This document shows positions 4,430 through 38,387 of a stretch of DNA of 40,703 bases, in pieces. Made by a program: the position numbers and the translations under genes. The notes under the pieces were generated by a model that made no database searches, had not been told where the DNA came from, and saw nothing but the letters and a program-made list of their open reading frames with translations. Location: positions 1-40,703 of IMG/VR virus record IMGVR_UViG_3300030616_000011; one strand, written 5' to 3'. Within the stretch, counting starts at the first letter, position 1. Each line of letters starts with the position of its first letter. Source of the DNA: a virus.

Positions 4430-5257
4430 TTACTTTTTACCTCCTTTTAATTTTTCATGTTTAATTTTTTCTTTAAGTAAATCTATTTCTACTTTGTTGT
4501 ATTCATCAGCGAGATCATAATAACTATTATCCACGCTGATGTGTTCTGATATCGTTATCGTGTCATTTTTTGATAAGCCGATACCACATCCTTCTTCTGG
4601 ACTACACGCACCTCGTGTAACCAGTGAATAGTGATCTCCTTGAAGATTCCTTGCGGTAAGTCTTTTTTCATCAAGTCCCTCAACATCTTCAAAAAATCTA
4701 TCTATCCATACACCGACTGAACCCTCTGGATATTTTTCAGCATCAAAACGATTTTTCATATACCCTTTAGCTACATTTGCCTTCGGCATATAATCATTTA
4801 TAACTGGCTGTCCTGTTACCCTTTTTGTTAATGGGTCATATCGGATGTCTTTAATGAATCCTACCTCATCTTCTATTTTTTCTGAATGGTCAATATTTAT
4901 TGGTTGTCTTTCCCATGTATGGTATGCCCTTTCCAGTTCTTCAGCTGGAAAAAACATTCCATTATATGTTCCATCCCCGATAATCAATGTCGCCCTTTCA
5001 AAATCCATATTATTATCTGAAAGATTTTGTTTACCTTTAAGTTTGAATAAATCAGCACAAAGTTCTAAATGTACTCTCTCCGGTTTTATCATGTTCTTGC
5101 TTTTTTTCCATTCATCATAAATTGAATAGCAGTGTCCTGCTGCTTGTTTTCTCCCTTCCTCAGTATTTGGGTATTCTTTATTATCTATCATATATTTAAT
5201 ACAAAATGAAGTATAATCATCTCTTGATTCTCCAGGATTAGGTTTCCTTGGAATCAT
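4430..5257 (-). CDS. Prohead maturation protease (DUF2213-like)
   Basis: About 275 residues. The N-terminal 50 residues (MIPRKPNPGESRDDYTSFC...AAGHCYSIYDEW) match a small module often found before phage prohead proteases. The main domain has ERATLIIGDGTYNG, then INIDHSE (candidate catalytic His), VGFIKDIRYDP, GSVGVW (candidate nucleophile Ser) and GDHYSLVTRGACSPEEGCGI, the order seen in DUF2213-type proteases. The role is cleavage of scaffold and capsid N termini during head maturation. The strong AAGGAGGTG best fits the ATG at 5257; a GTG (5263) and another ATG (5260) lie just upstream. It overlaps the preceding gene by about 20 bases and is followed by scaffold and capsid genes. Confidence 0.85.
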   Translation of the reverse strand: MIPRKPNPGESRDDYTSFCIKYMIDNKEYPNTEEGRKQAAGHCYSIYDEWKKSKNMIKPERVHLELCADLFKLKGKQNLSDNNMDFERATLIIGDGTYNGMFFPAEELERAYHTWERQPINIDHSEKIEDEVGFIKDIRYDPLTKRVTGQPVINDYMPKANVAKGYMKNRFDAEKYPEGSVGVWIDRFFEDVEGLDEKRLTARNLQGDHYSLVTRGACSPEEGCGIGLSKNDTITISEHISVDNSYYDLADEYNKVEIDLLKEKIKHEKLKGGKK

Positions 5258-5837
5258 CATCACCTCCTTTTTTCATGTTTGGCTTCCATTTAAGAACCTT
5301 TTTTTCTGCTTCTTTTTCAAGTTGCTCATATTCTTTTGAAAGCATACTTATTTTTTTCTCCTGATATTGAGGCACAAAAATCTGTTCATCAACACTCATT
5401 ATACCCTCTATATCAGGTATTTTTCCATCTTTTTTACCTTGATTTGTGTGTTCTTTTGAATCAGACCATGCATTAACATATAAATCTTTTATATCTACAT
5501 AATATTTTTCCGCTATTGGAAGTATCTCATTTGCATTTCTAAGCATTGGAACAATAATATACATAAATAACGGTCCATATGCAGTATCTTTATATATCAT
5601 CCAGAGACCTATCGCTGAAAATTCATATACTATTTTCCGTTGATATTCCTCTTTTATCTGTCCACACATTTTTTTAATATCATTCCATATTTTTCCAATA
5701 ACCGGATTTCCACAATTATCCATATCCTCAATGATATTATCCAGTGTTATCTTGTATTTCTTTTTGAGTTTTCTTCTAAGTATCCAAAGAAACAAACGGA
5801 GTTCTTTTTTCATTCCGTCTGTAAAAACGATATCCAT
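5238..5837 (-). CDS. Hypothetical protein in head module
   Basis: A 199-residue protein with a basic N-terminal helix (LWILRRKLKKKYK), a hydrophobic middle (FSAIGLWMIYK...LFMYIIVPMLRN) that could be buried helix or weak membrane contact, and a charged Lys/Glu C terminus. GGAGAAATAAAA precedes the ATG. It lies between the portal/closure genes and the protease. I do not recognise the family; an accessory head or capsid-assembly factor is likely from position only. Confidence 0.75.
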   Translation of the reverse strand: MDIVFTDGMKKELRLFLWILRRKLKKKYKITLDNIIEDMDNCGNPVIGKIWNDIKKMCGQIKEEYQRKIVYEFSAIGLWMIYKDTAYGPLFMYIIVPMLRNANEILPIAEKYYVDIKDLYVNAWSDSKEHTNQGKKDGKIPDIEGIMSVDEQIFVPQYQEKKISMLSKEYEQLEKEAEKKVLKWKPNMKKGGDDDSKET

Positions 5838-14156: not shown

Positions 14157-14438
14157 TCACTGATAAACACCCCTCTCAAAAGACTCCTGATTCTTCTGCT
14201 TATCCAAATGAAGGATTTCAGCAACACACTTATTAAACTCAGTCTGAGACCTTGCAAACTTATCAACACCCTTCAAAATATTATCAAGTTGCTTTAACTC
14301 CCTATCCAAATCATAACAAAGATTACTGAACTCATTATATGACACAACATTCAACCGATCACACCACCAATAATGAAAACGTTCCCTTAAAGAAAATTTC
14401 TTCCTGATTTCTTTTAATTTTTTTTCCGCTTCAGATAT
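14157..14438 (-). CDS. Hypothetical protein, candidate AUA start (93 aa)
   Basis: The frame from 14157 stays open upstream to a TGA at 14451, but the only common start codon is a TTG at 14354, which leaves 65 residues. The extra 28 codons look coding (SEAEKKLKEIRKKFSLRE...). They begin with ATA (14436-14438) placed seven bases after a perfect GGAGG, inside the end of the preceding gene. I therefore propose AUA initiation here; the TTG, behind GGTGGT, is the alternative. The protein is helical and charged, with YWWCDRL and a C-terminal ESFERGVYQ. Family unknown. Confidence 0.5.
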   Translation of the reverse strand: MSEAEKKLKEIRKKFSLRERFHYWWCDRLNVVSYNEFSNLCYDLDRELKQLDNILKGVDKFARSQTEFNKCVAEILHLDKQKNQESFERGVYQ

Positions 14439-14656
14439 TTTAATTCCTCCTCACAAACCCTAAAAATCAATGTTAAAAAACTAGCTTTCTCATCAAAACT
14501 TAAAGGAAAACCAAATTTAGTAACCTTCTCAACAGCCCAAACAGCACAAGACTGTGGTGATATCTCTCTATAATGAACCTTATCATAAACATTCACACTG
14601 TTTTTTTCATGCTTCTTCAATTCCTCAATCTTACGAAGATCCGACTCATCCAACAT
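14414..14656 (-). CDS. Hypothetical protein (80 aa)
   Basis: The product starts MLDESDLRKIEELKKHEK and contains YREISPQSCAVWAVEKVTKFGFPLSFDEKASFLTLIFRVCEEE. It is mainly helical. GGAGG lies 13 bases before the ATG, within the preceding membrane-protein gene. Not recognised. Confidence 0.65.
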   Translation of the reverse strand: MLDESDLRKIEELKKHEKNSVNVYDKVHYREISPQSCAVWAVEKVTKFGFPLSFDEKASFLTLIFRVCEEELKYLKRKKN

Positions 14657-16128: not shown

Positions 16129-16376
16129 CACCAATATCTCTCCTTTCTTATTTTCAATTTATACAATAACCAATCTTTAAATAACTCATATTTTGTTGGA
16201 TGATATTGTGTAAAATTAAGATTTACATCAATCGTTCCACCCTTTTTTGCTGAATAAGATATACTCGTTGGTCTCATATGTTTTAAAAGATATTGTACAT
16301 TTTGTTCTGTTGTAAATGTTAGTTCAACCGGTTGTCTTTTATTAAATATTTCATTTATTTCTTCATTATCGGACAT
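16128..16376 (-). CDS. Protein of the MSDN(E/K)EI group (82 aa)
   Basis: The product starts MSDNEEINEIFNKRQPVELTF and contains NVQYLLKHMRPTSISYSAKKGGTIDVNLNFTQYHPTKYE. It looks alpha/beta and basic. The shared N-terminal peptide comes with a 21-bp identical DNA block (16356-16376 and 16108-16128). Function unknown. Confidence 0.7.
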   Translation of the reverse strand: MSDNEEINEIFNKRQPVELTFTTEQNVQYLLKHMRPTSISYSAKKGGTIDVNLNFTQYHPTKYELFKDWLLYKLKIRKERYW

Positions 16377-16848: not shown

Positions 16849-17268
16849 TTAAAATCTACTCCAAACATCACTATGTATCCTTTGTTCACGATACAAGAAC
16901 ATTTTTACTTTATCTTTCAAATCCTTATTTTTAATTTTTTCTATTTCCCTATTTTTAATCTCATCCATAAACATTTTAGAAATGAGAGGATGATACATCC
17001 CCGTACCATGTAATTCTTCAGACACTCTCTTTTCTTCTTTTATCCGTTCACTTCCTTCCTCATCAATATTAGAACGTCTTGCAATATCACAAATTTCATT
17101 ATATTTTTTCTCAGCCTTTCTTAATTTTCTCTTGCAGTTTTTACAACCATATTGAATCCATGTAATCAAATCACAAGCCTTTTTAGCTTTCGCACACACT
17201 TTTTTATGTATTATTTCTTCATTATCGGACACATTATCGGACATCTTATCGGACATATTATCAGATAT
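16849..17268 (-). CDS. Protein of the MSDN(E/K)EI group behind a tandem start array
   Basis: Up to 139 residues. The N terminus reads ISDN-MSDK-MSDN-VSDN-EEII, encoded by four 12-bp units beginning ATA, ATG, ATG and GTG. GGTGGTG is correctly spaced only to the ATA at 17266-17268; the first ATG is at 17256. The body has CKNCKRKLRKAEKKYNEIC and a basic helical C terminus (NREIEKIKNKDLKDKVKMFLYREQR). A longer frame to 17349 overlaps the membrane-protein gene and lacks a ribosome-binding site. Function unknown. Confidence 0.55.
   Translation of the reverse strand: MSDNMSDKMSDNVSDNEEIIHKKVCAKAKKACDLITWIQYGCKNCKRKLRKAEKKYNEICDIARRSNIDEEGSERIKEEKRVSEELHGTGMYHPLISKMFMDEIKNREIEKIKNKDLKDKVKMFLYREQRIHSDVWSRF
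17221..17268 (-). repeat. Four tandem 12-bp units at a gene start
   Basis: Units derived from ATGTCCGATAAT stand head to tail, each starting with a codon of the NTG/ATA type. The same unit begins three neighbouring genes (16128, 16376, 16848) as a single copy. Confidence 0.85.
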
Positions 17269-17273
17269 ATTAT

Positions 17274-17708
17274 TTACACCACCATGTAGATAACCATCAA
17301 TACCAGAACCACCATTACGTACAAAACATAACGACCCACAGTATACCAATGATAACTCAACCTACGAAGCATACGCCATTCAAACACACCATAAAACAAC
17401 TGCACCCACCCAAGCACAAAAAAACACCAGCCAAGCCAAAACCACACATCAACCGTAACAAAAAACATCAGGAAACACAACAACGAGGCATACAAACCAC
17501 CAGAAAGACTAATCAACTCATCATCCTTATAACCAAGATACGTAAAATGCATACTAGGCAAAGGCTCAAAATTTACCCACATATAAGAAGAAGCACAATG
17601 CTGACGCTCACACTCCAAAAGATGACAAATCTCATGCCACAGACCACAAACCGTGAACCAAAGAAAAAGAAAAACAGATATATCAATCAGAAACATATTA
17701 GAGCACAA
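17274..17708 (-). CDS. Membrane HExxH protein, site-2-protease-like
   Basis: A 144-residue, strongly hydrophobic protein. A first transmembrane helix (about residues 6-24) ends with LWHEICHLLEC, an HExxH zinc-protease signature at residues 25-29. After a polar loop (FEPLPSMHFTYLGYKDDE) comes LISLSGGLYASLLCF, which resembles the helix after the active site in M50-like families, then two more helices. A third metal ligand (NPDG/LDG of true site-2 proteases) is not seen. AGGAGG lies eight bases before a TTG start at 17708. It could cleave a host membrane protein or a viral precursor. Activity is inferred only. Confidence 0.6.
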   Translation of the reverse strand: MCSNMFLIDISVFLFLWFTVCGLWHEICHLLECERQHCASSYMWVNFEPLPSMHFTYLGYKDDELISLSGGLYASLLCFLMFFVTVDVWFWLGWCFFVLGWVQLFYGVFEWRMLRRLSYHWYTVGRYVLYVMVVLVLMVIYMVV

Positions 17709-27140: not shown

Positions 27141-27265
27141 AATAAATTTAATCTTATTGGAAAGAGAAATAATGATATATAAAACAACAGAAAAAACAAA
27201 AAAACAAAGAAATACTAAATAAATTTAATAAAAACAATAAAAAACATATGTGAGGAGAGATAAAA

Positions 27266-28771
27266 ATAGATAAAGAAACCCTTGACAAAATACAAAAAGA
27301 AGAGGAAGAACGTAAAAAAAAAATGAGTTTACTAACAAATTATAATGTAATCCAAGTCAACGAAAAAACAGGGGTAGAACATGTCAACAATATCAACATG
27401 GCACAACTAATAATAAATGAAAGTGAATACAATTTTCATACAATAGAAGATATAGACAGCGGAAAACAAGAGATATTCTATTATAAAGACGGATGCTATC
27501 ATAAAGGAGGAGAAAATAGGATTAAACCTCTTGTAGATACTTATCTTGGGAACAAATCAAATATCAATCGCAAACGAGAAATAATTGATTACATAAAAAA
27601 TCAGAACTATCAGGAATGGGATGATCTTGAACCGCCTCTTAATCTAATTAATTTAAAAAACGGAATCTTTAACATAGATAAAAAAAAACTCATACCGCAC
27701 GATTCAAAATATTTTTTCATCCAACAACTTCCAATAATTTATGATGAAAAAGCAGAGTGCCCAAAGCTTCTAAAGTTTTTCGAAGAAGTAGTCTACCAGA
27801 ATTATATCCCAGTTTTACAAGAAATGTTCGGATTCATCCTATATAGGGATTATTTTCTTCATAAAGCCTTCCTATTTTTGGGAGGTGGACGCAATGGTAA
27901 ATCATCTGTCATAGAAATTATTGCTAATTTAATTGGTAAAAAAAATTGTGCTACCCGAAGTCTTCACGATCTTATCGAGAATCGTTTTGCATCTTCTTCT
28001 CTTTATGGAAAAATGGTTAATCTTGGTGCTGAAATTTCTAATAAAACACTTTTTGATACCAGCACATTTAAACATCTTACAGGTGGGGATTATATCTCAG
28101 CGGAGTTTAAACGCAGAAATGCATTTGTTTTCAAAAATTATGCAAAGCTTGTCTTCAATGCCAATAAAATTCCTTATACAAAATATGATAAATCACTTGC
28201 TTTCTTTCAACGTTGGATTATTATTGTTTTTCCTAATACTTTTGAAATTAACAGCAAAGGAACAGACCCACAGATTGTCAAAAAAATTACAACCAATAAA
28301 GAACTCTCAGGTTTGTTCAACTGGTCATTAATTGGTTTAGAACGTCTTCTAAAAAATTACAGATTTAGCGATGCTATTGAGGAGAACGAAATTGGCGAAT
28401 GGTATGAAACTCTTGTTTCACCTGAAAAATTTTTTATGAAAGAACATCTTGAAGAAATAGAAGATATTTATCTTCCAAATTATGAAGTTTATGATGAATA
28501 TAAAAAATGGGCATTAGAACGTGGTTATCCCGTACTTACTCTTTCTGCTTTTTCCAGGGCTATTAAAAAATATTTTAAAACTTGTGATATTGTTTCTCAT
28601 CGGATTAATGGTAATGTTACCAAGTGTTATAAGAATATTAATTGGCGTCTTGACAAAATGAATATAATTCAAACATCTAATCATAAAATAGATTATTTTA
28701 ATCCTGAGAGTTTTATTCCATCTGAAGAAAAAAGGGAACATATCGAAAAAAAAATAAGTAAAGACCTCTAA
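27266..28771 (+). CDS. SF3 helicase / P4-type primase-helicase, candidate AUA start
   Basis: About 501 residues. The core is D5/P4-like: FLFLGGGRNGKSSVIEII (Walker A, near residue 208), GKMVNLGAEIS (Walker B-like), LTGGDYISAEFKRRNAF and LVFNANKIPYTKYDKSLAFFQRW (sensor region), then a C-terminal winged-helix-like part. No primase active site or Toprim motif is seen at the N terminus, so it is a helicase that probably loads at the origin. An ATG stands at 27323, but the frame continues upstream through IDKETLDKIQKEEEERKKK to ATA (27266-27268), eight bases after GGAG, while the ATG has no well-placed site. Last gene of the arm; the terminator overlaps its stop. Confidence 0.88.
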   Translation: MDKETLDKIQKEEEERKKKMSLLTNYNVIQVNEKTGVEHVNNINMAQLIINESEYNFHTIEDIDSGKQEIFYYKDGCYHKGGENRIKPLVDTYLGNKSNINRKREIIDYIKNQNYQEWDDLEPPLNLINLKNGIFNIDKKKLIPHDSKYFFIQQLPIIYDEKAECPKLLKFFEEVVYQNYIPVLQEMFGFILYRDYFLHKAFLFLGGGRNGKSSVIEIIANLIGKKNCATRSLHDLIENRFASSSLYGKMVNLGAEISNKTLFDTSTFKHLTGGDYISAEFKRRNAFVFKNYAKLVFNANKIPYTKYDKSLAFFQRWIIIVFPNTFEINSKGTDPQIVKKITTNKELSGLFNWSLIGLERLLKNYRFSDAIEENEIGEWYETLVSPEKFFMKEHLEEIEDIYLPNYEVYDEYKKWALERGYPVLTLSAFSRAIKKYFKTCDIVSHRINGNVTKCYKNINWRLDKMNIIQTSNHKIDYFNPESFIPSEEKREHIEKKISKDL

Positions 28772-32653: not shown

Positions 32654-35392
32654 TCACCTCATATCATATTTACTTGTTCCATCAGCATTAATAAGTTCAG
32701 CTTTTATACCCAAACCAAGCATACTAGCTACCCTATTTATATCAACATCCGTGTTAATATTTCCAACCTTTACCAACATGTTTATTACTGCATTTGTAAG
32801 ACCAGTCTTTGGTACAGTCTTATATGTCATCCCACCTGTTCCACCTGATGGTGCATAACTATAATTCTCATATTTTTTCACATAACTAGCAAGAGCTTTC
32901 TTCATACCTGCTGCATCTATAAACAATGAAAGACCAGGTGCTTCCATTAATATTTTTGTAAGATCCTGCATTTTATCAAAAGCAGTCTTATTTATAGATG
33001 TAAGCGTATCCTCCCATTGTTGTTTCCTGGTATCAAGAAGAACTGCCTCATCAAATATTTCCTGTGACAAATCAGCTATCTGCTGATCATAATTGTATTT
33101 CATCTGGTATGTTACTTCATTTGCATCACGGATTCTTTTATCAATGATTTCTTTTGCCTTCTGATAGGCATCAAGTTCGGATACTGTTTTTCTCTCTGCA
33201 TTATCTTCAGCGGAGATTCTTTCCTGAAGATTCATTATTCGAAGGTTTTTCATCCTTCTTTCTTCAGATCGTGTAAGACCACGCCTTCTCATCATTCCTC
33301 TAAGTTGAAGTTTCATTATCTCCAAATTGTTTTCTTCGATGACTAAGTTTGTTTTTTCCATCTCTTTCCGCTGGCTTTCTTGTGCATGTTCATATTCTCG
33401 GACAGTTGTTACCGCATTTTTTAGTTCTGTATTTTGTGTCTTCCAAAGATAAGTTTCATCCTCTAGTCCCATATTTATATCATGTATAAGGTCAGCATGT
33501 GTTTGTTCTGCTTTAAGAAGTTCAAATTCATATCCTAATGTTCCCTTTATTGTATCTCCATATTGTGATAGTTTTTCTCTTTGTTCTTCTGTTAAGCTAG
33601 TCAATTCTGAAACAGCTATACTTGCTGTTCTCTGAAAAGTTCCCCAAACATGAGTAATATTTTCAGTAATTTCTTCATTGAGGGTATCAAGCGTTCCCCA
33701 ACCATAAGTAATATTTTCAGTAAGTTCTTCATTGAGGTTATCAAGCTCATTTTCTATATCTATAAGGTCTGTTTCAAGTTTTTCGAGTTCTGTGGTGTAA
33801 TCATCAAGTCGCCCTGTTGCCTTATCAAAGGCATTCTGGTTATTATTAATTTCCCATGTTAAATCTTCGAGGTTTTGTGTAAGATCACCAGAGTAATATC
33901 TTATTATATCATGTACTTTTTTCTCCACTTCTTCAGCATCATATCCTTCTTTAACCTTCAGAAAACCTTTTTCTATAGAAAAAGGTGATTCTCCCATTCC
34001 AAATAATTCTCTTTCCACTTTTTTTATTTCTGCACTGATTTTCTCAGCTTCTTTAAAAGCATCTATATAGGCATCAATAGAACCAACATCAAGAAAACCA
34101 CCTTCTCCCTCAAAAGGCTCCATAACCTGATTAATATAACTATCTTTTATTCGCTGGAAAGTATCCTCAACACGTCTAACCGATGCATCAGCATCACCAC
34201 CAGAAAGAAAAGTACCCCACCAAACTTTTGTCTTACGCCACCATAATTCAAAACCAGACCATGCCTCACCAACCTTTCTCTCAGCATATTCAAGCTGTTG
34301 AGTAAGAATCTCAGCCTGACGTTGAGCAGTATTAATCATTTTAGCAAGAGCTTCCTCAGTACGACCAGCTGCATCCTTAACAAGTAGAAGATCTTCCTCA
34401 AAACCCTCAAGTCCCTCATCACCTGCTAAAACCATTGCAACACGAAGGCTACGCATATTTGGGATAAGCTCAGAAATTATCCCTCTTCCGAATTCATGTG
34501 TTGCCTCATTAAGTTTATGGAAGAAACCAACTAAACCATCAATACGAAGACTAAGAGCACTCATATCAATGCCATATTCTTGAGCAACCTTTTTTGCCTT
34601 CTCAGTTGGACTAACAACATTCTGAATAGCAAGAGCAAGACCACGAGCTGTCATATCAAGATGAAGACCATGACGAGTAGCTGTAGACAATGCAGCCATA
34701 AGTTCACTGAAACGTATACCAGCTTGTGCAGCTATTGGTACTACATAACCAAGAGATGATTCCAAGTCACGGAACTGGAATTTACCACGGACAACCGATT
34801 GAAAAAGAATATCAGAAACATTTGCTGCCTGTGCAGCAGTCATCCCATAAGTATTCAGAACCGTCGTAAAAATATCTACAGATTCACGTACCGTTGACAA
34901 TCCAGCTATAGAAGCCTTAGTAGCAGTATTTAGAAGTCCTATGGCATCTTCAGCATCAAAAGCAGCAGACATAATGTCATATAATCCTTTTGCCATATCA
35001 GACGTTGCCTGCCCGAAGTTAATAGAAAGAACCTGTACACCAGCTGAAAGACGATCTATTTGATCATATGTATCTTTTCCGAGGATTGTTCCTACTTCTG
35101 CGATTCTTACTTCAAACTCACGGAATTTATTTATTGAATCCCCAACCCATCCGATGAGAGAACGAATTGCTTGTTCACCATATCTAAAAGCAGCCTGAAG
35201 ACCAACGAAACGCATAGCAAGTCCTTTTAATTCACCACCGAAACGTTTTGTCCGAGTTGAAGATTTTAACATACCATTTTCATATGTTCTAGTGGTTTTA
35301 GAAAGACCTTTCATCTCTGTTGTAACTTCTCTAACTTTGTTAATAAGATTACCCTTATATTGAAATTCAAAACTTACTGTTTTTTCAGCCAT
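32654..35392 (-). CDS. Tail tape measure protein (TP901-type)
   Basis: A 912-residue protein, the largest wholly inside the window. Residues 85-320 contain the TP901 core: FEVRIAEVGTILG, LSINFGQATSDMAKGLYDIMSAAFDA, LSTVRESVDIFTTVLNTYGMTAAQAANVSDILFQSVVRGKF and LESSLGYVVPIAAQAGI. Long coiled coils follow (residues about 500-800, with a repeated ENITYGWGTLDTLNEE-type segment). No lysozyme or peptidase domain is seen. At about 0.15 nm per residue a tail near 135 nm is expected. The start overlaps the end of the frameshifted chaperone extension by eight bases. Confidence 0.92.
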   Translation of the reverse strand: MAEKTVSFEFQYKGNLINKVREVTTEMKGLSKTTRTYENGMLKSSTRTKRFGGELKGLAMRFVGLQAAFRYGEQAIRSLIGWVGDSINKFREFEVRIAEVGTILGKDTYDQIDRLSAGVQVLSINFGQATSDMAKGLYDIMSAAFDAEDAIGLLNTATKASIAGLSTVRESVDIFTTVLNTYGMTAAQAANVSDILFQSVVRGKFQFRDLESSLGYVVPIAAQAGIRFSELMAALSTATRHGLHLDMTARGLALAIQNVVSPTEKAKKVAQEYGIDMSALSLRIDGLVGFFHKLNEATHEFGRGIISELIPNMRSLRVAMVLAGDEGLEGFEEDLLLVKDAAGRTEEALAKMINTAQRQAEILTQQLEYAERKVGEAWSGFELWWRKTKVWWGTFLSGGDADASVRRVEDTFQRIKDSYINQVMEPFEGEGGFLDVGSIDAYIDAFKEAEKISAEIKKVERELFGMGESPFSIEKGFLKVKEGYDAEEVEKKVHDIIRYYSGDLTQNLEDLTWEINNNQNAFDKATGRLDDYTTELEKLETDLIDIENELDNLNEELTENITYGWGTLDTLNEEITENITHVWGTFQRTASIAVSELTSLTEEQREKLSQYGDTIKGTLGYEFELLKAEQTHADLIHDINMGLEDETYLWKTQNTELKNAVTTVREYEHAQESQRKEMEKTNLVIEENNLEIMKLQLRGMMRRRGLTRSEERRMKNLRIMNLQERISAEDNAERKTVSELDAYQKAKEIIDKRIRDANEVTYQMKYNYDQQIADLSQEIFDEAVLLDTRKQQWEDTLTSINKTAFDKMQDLTKILMEAPGLSLFIDAAGMKKALASYVKKYENYSYAPSGGTGGMTYKTVPKTGLTNAVINMLVKVGNINTDVDINRVASMLGLGIKAELINADGTSKYDMR

Positions 35393-35640
35393 GTTTCATT
35401 CTCTCCTGGGCTCTTTTTATCATATCCTTCTGAGATTTTTTCAGAGGAATGGGTTGCCCGTCATTCATCATTTTTTTGATTTTAAGATACTTATGTAAAT
35501 TATTGAAATCTTTCATGCTCATAATATTAATATCTTGAAGATTACCAAGTTGTATATACATCTCAAACTTGATTTCTCGAAGACTATCAAGTTGTTCCGT
35601 AAAGGAAATATCTACATCGTTTTCCGAAAATCCTTCTCTT
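35385..35640 (-). CDS. Tail assembly chaperone extension, -1 frame (GT-like)
   Basis: After the shorter chaperone's TAG (35612-35614) the -1 frame is open to a TGA at 35385. It codes for END-VDISFTEQLDSLREIKFEMY... and ends QERMKHG, and has no own start before residue 25. In the -1 frame a TGA stands just above 35637, so a shift must occur within about 25 bases, which contain TTTTCGG and GGAAAAC as slip sites. This is the G/GT arrangement of lambda-type tails, where the long form recruits the tape measure protein. Confidence 0.65.
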
Positions 35641-35926
35641 CACCCTTTGTAAGTTCACGTCCGGCTTCCCAGATATTATTCGAAAGAAAAACAAAATCAG
35701 CGACATGCATATTTTTTATATCATCAAGAGAAACACTTTCATCAATAATTTGAAGTGTCTTCCAGACAAGTATCTGATTCATTTCTTTCTCAAATTTTCC
35801 CCGATTTTTTTTGTATTTTTCCTCTTTTTCAAGTTTGGCAATTTCCTCAAGCCATTCCTCATGACGACTAACTGTCATCTTTGGAAGGACAAAGGATTCG
35901 CCATCTTTTACAAAGGATAAAGATAT
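35612..35926 (-). CDS. Tail assembly chaperone, short form; start unclear
   Basis: The first ATG (35878) gives 88 residues, MTVSRHEEWLEEIAKLEKEEKYKK. But upstream codons in the same frame give KISLSFVKDGESFVLPK, the beta strand pair that usually opens this family, and no ATG, GTG or TTG occurs before a TGA at 35966. ATA at 35924-35926 lies five bases after GGAG, and another ATA at 35936 follows AGAGG by ten. An AUA start is proposed. It lies between the tail tube and tape measure genes, the standard chaperone position. Confidence 0.65.
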   Translation of the reverse strand: MSLSFVKDGESFVLPKMTVSRHEEWLEEIAKLEKEEKYKKNRGKFEKEMNQILVWKTLQIIDESVSLDDIKNMHVADFVFLSNNIWEAGRELTKGEEKDFRKTM

Positions 35927-36009
35927 TTTTTCTCCTATTTTCTCACAACCTCTTACCCATACAAATCATGGAATAAGCATAAAATAAAGAAAACGTAGGG
36001 ATAAAACCC

Positions 36010-37463: not shown

Positions 37464-38387
37464 TTATACACCTGCTACCATTGGTTTCCTCACCTGATTA
37501 ATAAGCTGACGGTATTTTCTATAGAACCGTCGACTGTCCTTTTCAATAATTGGAAGATTTGATGCTATATCACCAAGTGTCACCCTGTCAACTTCTTTAA
37601 GTCGTCTCATAACCATATCAGCTGCTAGATGACCAACTGCATTTCTGAAAAGTTCTTCATCGTAGCTTCCGTATTGATGCCAGTAGTCAATGTATACTCC
37701 TTCATTGTTAGCAGGAATAGCTGTACTTCCATCATTCTGATACATTGATATTTCTCCTCTCTGATATTTAGAAACCGTAATTATGGCTCGTTGATAGCTT
37801 CCATTATTATCAACCCACCATGCATTAATATCTGTTGCACATGATGTATTATTACCAGTTATGCTTCCATCACCATTTATATCGGCAATTGGAAAGAAAT
37901 TACTTTGAAAGCTTGTATTTATTCCATCAAATCCTGCTCCTGTATTAGGATTTCCATTTGGTGTTTCCTCATAATGATGGATATAAATATCTCGTAATGC
38001 TTCTTTGTAGGCTTTCCAACAAATGTCAGAAAGTGCATCATCATCTACATCCTTAGTCTCACTAGCTCCTGTTATATCTCTTACATCATCTGTCACACGC
38101 CAAGGCATTACATAGAATTTATCATGTTCAACCGCTACCTGACTTGTTCCTGATGTGCTTTTTACTTCTATTTTGTATTTACCATATGTTGCAGTGGAGG
38201 ACAATGAATCATAGTTATAGTAATAAACACCCGTACTATCTCTTGCCATAGCTTGTGAATTAACAAGAACAAAATCACAGGGGTCTTTAATCGTTATACT
38301 TACTGTGCTTGGATCAACCTTTGTTTTAGTCCGGTCTCTAATTGTTATCCAGTAAGCTATAGAATCTTCTCTTTCGTAGATTGCCAT
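37464..38387 (-). CDS. Head-tail connector with N-terminal Ig-like domain and Ca-loop
   Basis: A 307-residue protein, longer than usual adaptors. Residues 1-95 form an Ig-like sandwich (WITIRDRTKTKVDPSTVSITIKDP...YGKYKIEVKSTSGTSQ). A helical adaptor follows (DVRDITGASE, ALSDICWKAYKEALRDIYIHHYEE) and ends with FRNAVGHLAADMVMRRLKEVDRV and KYRQLINQVRKPM. Inserted between is ADINGDGSITG, a D-x-N-x-D-G-x-I EF-hand/dockerin-type calcium loop. GGAGG precedes the ATG. It probably joins portal to tail; the Ig domain may project outward. Confidence 0.72.
   Translation of the reverse strand: MAIYEREDSIAYWITIRDRTKTKVDPSTVSITIKDPCDFVLVNSQAMARDSTGVYYYNYDSLSSTATYGKYKIEVKSTSGTSQVAVEHDKFYVMPWRVTDDVRDITGASETKDVDDDALSDICWKAYKEALRDIYIHHYEETPNGNPNTGAGFDGINTSFQSNFFPIADINGDGSITGNNTSCATDINAWWVDNNGSYQRAIITVSKYQRGEISMYQNDGSTAIPANNEGVYIDYWHQYGSYDEELFRNAVGHLAADMVMRRLKEVDRVTLGDIASNLPIIEKDSRRFYRKYRQLINQVRKPMVAGV

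Follow-up and report, generated by a model that had tools for sequence, protein, structure and literature searches.

Three genes in the virus DNA analysed here, encoding a tail assembly chaperone, an SF3 helicase and a protein of unassigned function (gene 14157), very probably descend from copies with a standard start codon that became ATA, with translation still initiating at that codon. The window, meaning the whole stretch of DNA analysed, is 40,703 bases long and is the whole virus record; it has a G+C content of 34% and carries tailed-virus genes (terminase, portal and tape measure) in addition to the SF3 helicase. Alignment with relatives showed that the residues after each of the three ATA codons are homologous coding sequence, and that the relatives start with ATG, GTG or TTG at or near the same position. 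We infer that translation begins at AUA, that the protein carries an N-terminal methionine and that output is lower than from AUG.

A preliminary description of the window had proposed AUA initiation at four genes. The four ATA codons, their purine-rich ribosome-binding sequences and the spacings were all present as given there. Homologues support AUA initiation in three of these genes; gene 16849 (ATA at 17268) is undecided. The comparison of helicase and chaperone N termini that it had suggested was run; the extra residues were present in the homologues, and none started at the downstream ATG.

Survey of start sites in the window

Shine-Dalgarno duplex energies against the 16S 3' end were surveyed for the ~60 predicted genes of the window. 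In nearly all of them an ATG, GTG or TTG was found at normal spacing after a good Shine-Dalgarno sequence. The genes lacking a standard, well-placed start were those named in the preliminary description, ORFs truncated at the window edge, a single short, weak ORF, and ORF 35385, which overlaps the chaperone gene. Because nearly all other genes of the window have a standard start and a Shine-Dalgarno sequence, the ATA starts are not attributed to chance. The chaperone and the helicase clearly have an AUA normally spaced from a Shine-Dalgarno sequence and lack a better standard start; this was also found in gene 14157. Codon statistics were indecisive alone, favouring a TTG extension of gene 16849 and giving a low score to the homology-backed chaperone extension. 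Recoding of TGA was considered as the cause of the missing starts and rejected: a count of stop usage showed that 22 of 61 window genes terminate with TGA, which is therefore a real stop, so that recoding does not explain the absent starts.

Single-protein pattern searches with the helicase, the chaperone, the 14157 protein and the terminase gave no matches, whereas alignment-based searches succeeded. When a collection of named phages was queried with the tape-measure and helicase proteins of the window, only distant matches were obtained.

Tail assembly chaperone

35612..35938 (-), tail assembly chaperone gene, 108 codons from ATA, 37 homologues by profile search
35936..35938 (-), putative ATA start codon, corrected site, from homologue N-terminus alignment
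35942..35953 (-), Shine-Dalgarno sequence AGAGGTTGTGAG for this ATA, duplex with the 16S 3' end -9.9 kcal/mol
35924..35926 (-), ATA proposed earlier as the start, internal codon 5, aligning with internal homologue residues

An alignment search with the tape-measure protein gave 45 loci; among them, a profile derived from four chaperones identified 37 chaperone homologues (E 1e-12 to 1e-50), located just upstream of the tape-measure gene. The N terminus was intact in 36 of the 37, and all 36 contained the residues that precede ATG 35878 of the window. The start codon was ATG in 35 of these 36 homologues and TTG in one; AUA was found at the start of none. In 13 of the 36 the start coincides with ATA 35938, and in 35 it is no more than four codons away. 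Residues K4, F9, G13, F16 and P19, invariant in a four-sequence alignment, all lie upstream of the in-frame ATG.

The preliminary description had read the start from GGAG-AAAAA-ATA at 35926, and those letters are as stated. The nearest relative begins ATG GGC GAA AAA ATA (MGEKISLSFV), where the window reads ATA GGA GAA AAA ATA (IGEKISLSFV); its ATG aligns with ATA 35938, and the chaperone start is therefore placed at the first of the two ATA codons. The AUA start itself was thus supported, at a site four codons from the one proposed (35938-35936), with 35926-35924 becoming codon 5. No named Pfam or PHROG match was found for the chaperone. Its gene (35612) lies between the tube gene (36010) and the tape-measure gene (32654), which is the tail-chaperone arrangement.

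Near the other end of the gene, GGATTTTCGG (window 35624-35633, minus strand) is a candidate -1 frameshift site leading from the chaperone into the overlapping ORF ending at 35385. From its sequence it is likely a programmed -1 frameshift site, and ORF 35385 is best read as the putative chaperone frameshift product. A T-ending codon followed by TTT occurs within the last 40 codons in 32 of 33 relatives, often as GAT TTT C.

SF3 helicase

27266..28771 (+), SF3 helicase gene, 501 codons from ATA, phrog_864 E 4e-84
27266..27268 (+), putative ATA start codon of the helicase (D5-like), the only well-placed start candidate, extension coding and homologous
27254..27257 (+), GGAG Shine-Dalgarno core, 8 nt before ATA

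The helicase leader reads GGAG-AGATAAAA-ATA at 27266. The Pfam domains DUF5906, D5_N and Pox_D5 scored above cut-off, and the Walker A motif GGGRNGKS is present. The 18-codon extension had an in-frame coding score of 11.8; true N termini averaged 6.9 and out-of-frame stretches -2.2. With the closest relative, G001 (50% identity), the alignment reaches into the extension, beginning at residue 12; G001 starts with TTG, and its N terminus is longer and includes a cysteine-rich, zinc-finger-like stretch. Four free-standing helicase relatives begin ~2-8 residues from the ATA, with GTG in G002 and ATG in G833, G837 and G836. None of these five relatives starts at the position of window ATG 27323. 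Since helicase N termini differ in length, the homologues agree with the proposed start approximately, within a few residues, rather than codon for codon.

Gene 14157

14157..14438 (-), gene 14157, 93 codons, function unassigned, 43% identity over residues 3-91 to G846:C1:34385-34660
14436..14438 (-), putative ATA start codon, the G846 homologue having ATG TCT at the matching end
14446..14450 (-), GGAGG Shine-Dalgarno core, 7 nt before ATA, -12.2 kcal/mol

The leader of this gene reads GGAGG-AATTAAA-ATA at 14438. The sole relative, in G846 (E 5e-15), has ATG TCT at its start in place of the ATA TCT of the window, and the alignment pairs MSKVEEEKKKKELYADKHGGYSRRERFHFWLCDRL of the homologue with ISEAEKKLKEIRKKFSLRERFHYWWCDRL of the window. 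The motif RERFHYWWCDRL, RERFH(Y/F)W(W/L)CDRL, is common to the two proteins and lies upstream of TTG 14354. The TTG and GTG candidates of gene 14157 are also preceded by some Shine-Dalgarno-like sequence. The coding score of the extension was modest (4.5 over 27 codons), and the start consequently leans on the one homologue.

Gene 16849

17266..17268 (-), ATA, possible start of gene 16849, with GGTGGTG 8 nt upstream and ATG 12 nt downstream

The preliminary description had this frame staying open past its last standard start to the ATA (GGTGGTG-TAAATAAT-ATA at 17268). The frame also contains a TTG at 17349, 81 nt before the ATA, and an ATG 12 nt after it, and the gene is thus not forced onto ATA. 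A homologue search for gene 16849 found none. There is an even chance that the downstream ATG, which is in frame within a run of 12-nt repeats (units ATA, ATG, ATG, GTG), is the start, but the only good Shine-Dalgarno sequence fits the ATA (-8.8 kcal/mol, against -1.6 for the ATG).

The repeat run (window 17221-17268, minus strand) consists of four units beginning ATA, ATG, ATG and GTG, each followed by TCT/TCC GAT AAT/AAG. MSDN is the N terminus of the neighbouring genes at 16376 and 16848. Codon statistics favoured an extension of gene 16849 to TTG 17349, although this TTG sits in the hydrophobic end of the upstream gene, 17274, whose own-frame reading gives by inspection a transmembrane-like helix.

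Probable AUA starts in related viruses

The survey of relatives covered 597 predicted genes of the virus group and was seeded by strong Shine-Dalgarno sequences. Five more homology-backed AUA starts were found in four contigs, and four of them align exactly with ATG starts of homologues. The ATA at G846 17477 matches exactly the ATG of window gene 37464-38387 (65% identity) and that of G001; L227 1907 aligns with an ATG in L236 (60%); and G010 12435 aligns with an ATG in G833 (63%) and with position 1 of the PF21840 profile (E 3e-23). In a head-protease-like gene, the ATA at G846 24793 aligns with ATG in G010 and L108, and G002 36135 has an ATA at the same place. With the three of the window, AUA starts total eight in five contigs, ~1% of genes. 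Across the sets of homologues that were compared, copies with AUA tended toward the stronger Shine-Dalgarno sequence; this is a hint only, as the cases were found through that feature and a survey seeded in this way cannot show compensation for AUA.

Other candidates in the relatives proved false: G010 22377 (probably the wrong frame), L187 (a glycine-rich motif within a kinase gene), and L227 3676 with similar cases (frameshift products).

Among 100 genes without a standard start in wider phage loci, ATA (10) and ATT (9) were the commonest codons at the start position, as candidates. Candidate AUA starts occur in the terminase large-subunit genes of L059 (18467), L068 (17706) and L076 (16631), which lack a nearby standard start and have AAAGGAGGCGGC followed by ATA CGN AAA/AGA CTC. 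Possible starts at AUU or AUC were seen at L112 18445, L062 1605, L066 9302 and L143 13503, in portal-like, helicase, primase and zinc-ribbon genes. A candidate ACG start behind GGGGTTGATT lies at ~20576 on the minus strand of G010 (IMGVR_UViG_3300027792_000031). Within the window, gene 4430-5263 carries GGAGGTGATGATGATTCC (5248-5275, minus strand) with GTG, ATG, ATG and ATT as start candidates, and the AUA/ATG start of its relatives aligns near the ATT. A set of ~38 viral contigs (L200-L238) is related through the tape-measure protein, with no close match among named phages.

Proposed explanation and alternatives

The proposed ancestral start is a standard one, as most relatives have ATG, and if the ancestor had ATG a single G-to-A change would give ATA. 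A good Shine-Dalgarno sequence would position the ribosome at the AUA, which the initiator tRNA (anticodon CAU) would read with a third-base mismatch, and the first residue of the protein should remain methionine. AUA is not conserved among relatives: no chaperone homologue of the 36 has it, and in the head-protease-like gene it occurs in G002 and G846, with ATG in G010 and L108. The absence of AUA from the chaperone homologues leaves a conserved regulatory role for it without support, and a lineage-specific, tolerated change is the simpler reading.

If the genes instead started at the first downstream ATG or TTG, where a standard ORF listing puts them, the preceding residues would be untranslated. 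This is very unlikely: conserved residues precede that codon in each of the three genes, no homologue begins there, and the Shine-Dalgarno sequences of the downstream starts are weak or absent (-3.8 kcal/mol in the helicase, -0.5 kcal/mol in the chaperone). An equally improbable reading takes the ATA codons for assembly or sequencing errors for ATG, or the genes for damaged copies in a decaying genome; relatives do have ATG at the same place, but the ATA pattern recurs in five contigs from different samples, with frames intact and Shine-Dalgarno sequences well placed.

Readthrough of an upstream TGA, or frameshifting, could in principle supply the extra residues without new initiation, and TGA is indeed the preceding stop in all three frames, with an in-frame ATG just before it in the helicase and the chaperone. 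However, TGA terminates 22 of 61 genes, it lies within the purine-rich ribosome-binding sequence in two of the genes, and homologues start at the ATA position rather than upstream; we consider this explanation highly improbable, the least probable of those weighed here. Initiation at an ATA derived from a standard start is preferred for the three genes.

It is also possible, though doubtful, that the host, perhaps an archaeon, tolerates AUA starts far above the level of studied organisms through its initiator tRNA or initiation factors; changes from ATG to ATA at starts would then be nearly neutral in its viruses. Among the cellular helicases closest to that of the window, several come from archaea, which is why an archaeal host is suggested. 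Tape-measure searches gave no strong match in 393 genomes sampled from the phylum of L183 (a Methanocellales MAG), nor in 390 sampled from the phylum of L182 (a Thermoplasmata MAG).

What is new is the recurrence of AUA starts within one virus group, in replication and assembly genes; in the literature searched, no homology-backed AUA start was found documented for replication or tail-assembly genes of prokaryotic viruses. Gene callers limited to ATG, GTG and TTG truncate proteins with AUA starts or miss small ones, and comparison of N termini offers a way to find such starts. Homologue pairs with ATG and ATA starts are a natural test of the cost of AUA.

Comparison with known non-AUG starts

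The infC gene of E. coli starts with AUU and is autoregulated by IF3. The pcnB gene of E. coli also has an AUU start (PMC13009471). The window genes resemble these two in having a near-cognate start whose third-base mismatch may limit output, but they use AUA rather than AUU, and IF3 autoregulation is a feature of infC. In E. coli in vitro, non-standard pairs are tolerated better at the third base than at the first or second, and IF3 disfavours weak pairs (PMC10158994).

Starts at AUA behind strong Shine-Dalgarno sequences are known from S. aureus infC, ccpN and citZ, some of them located by ribosome profiling, and reporters with non-canonical starts gave ~10% of the AUG output in poor medium, with ccpN at <=30% in rich medium (PMC13009471). 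By analogy with these data, it is plausible that AUA limits expression of the window genes. Calling AUA starts very rare, as the preliminary description did, is reasonable for genes of cells, but S. aureus provides cellular examples and such starts occur repeatedly in this virus group. The three window genes share with S. aureus infC, ccpN and citZ an AUA preceded by a strong Shine-Dalgarno sequence, and they too are ordinary genes in other respects. Initiation in S. aureus was established by ribosome profiling and/or reporters, whereas in the virus it is deduced from homology; and some AUA starts of S. aureus are conserved, whereas for the window chaperone and gene 14157 the homologues begin with ATG or a different standard codon. 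The putative AUA starts described here are well-supported additions to a known kind of start, with no new mechanism.
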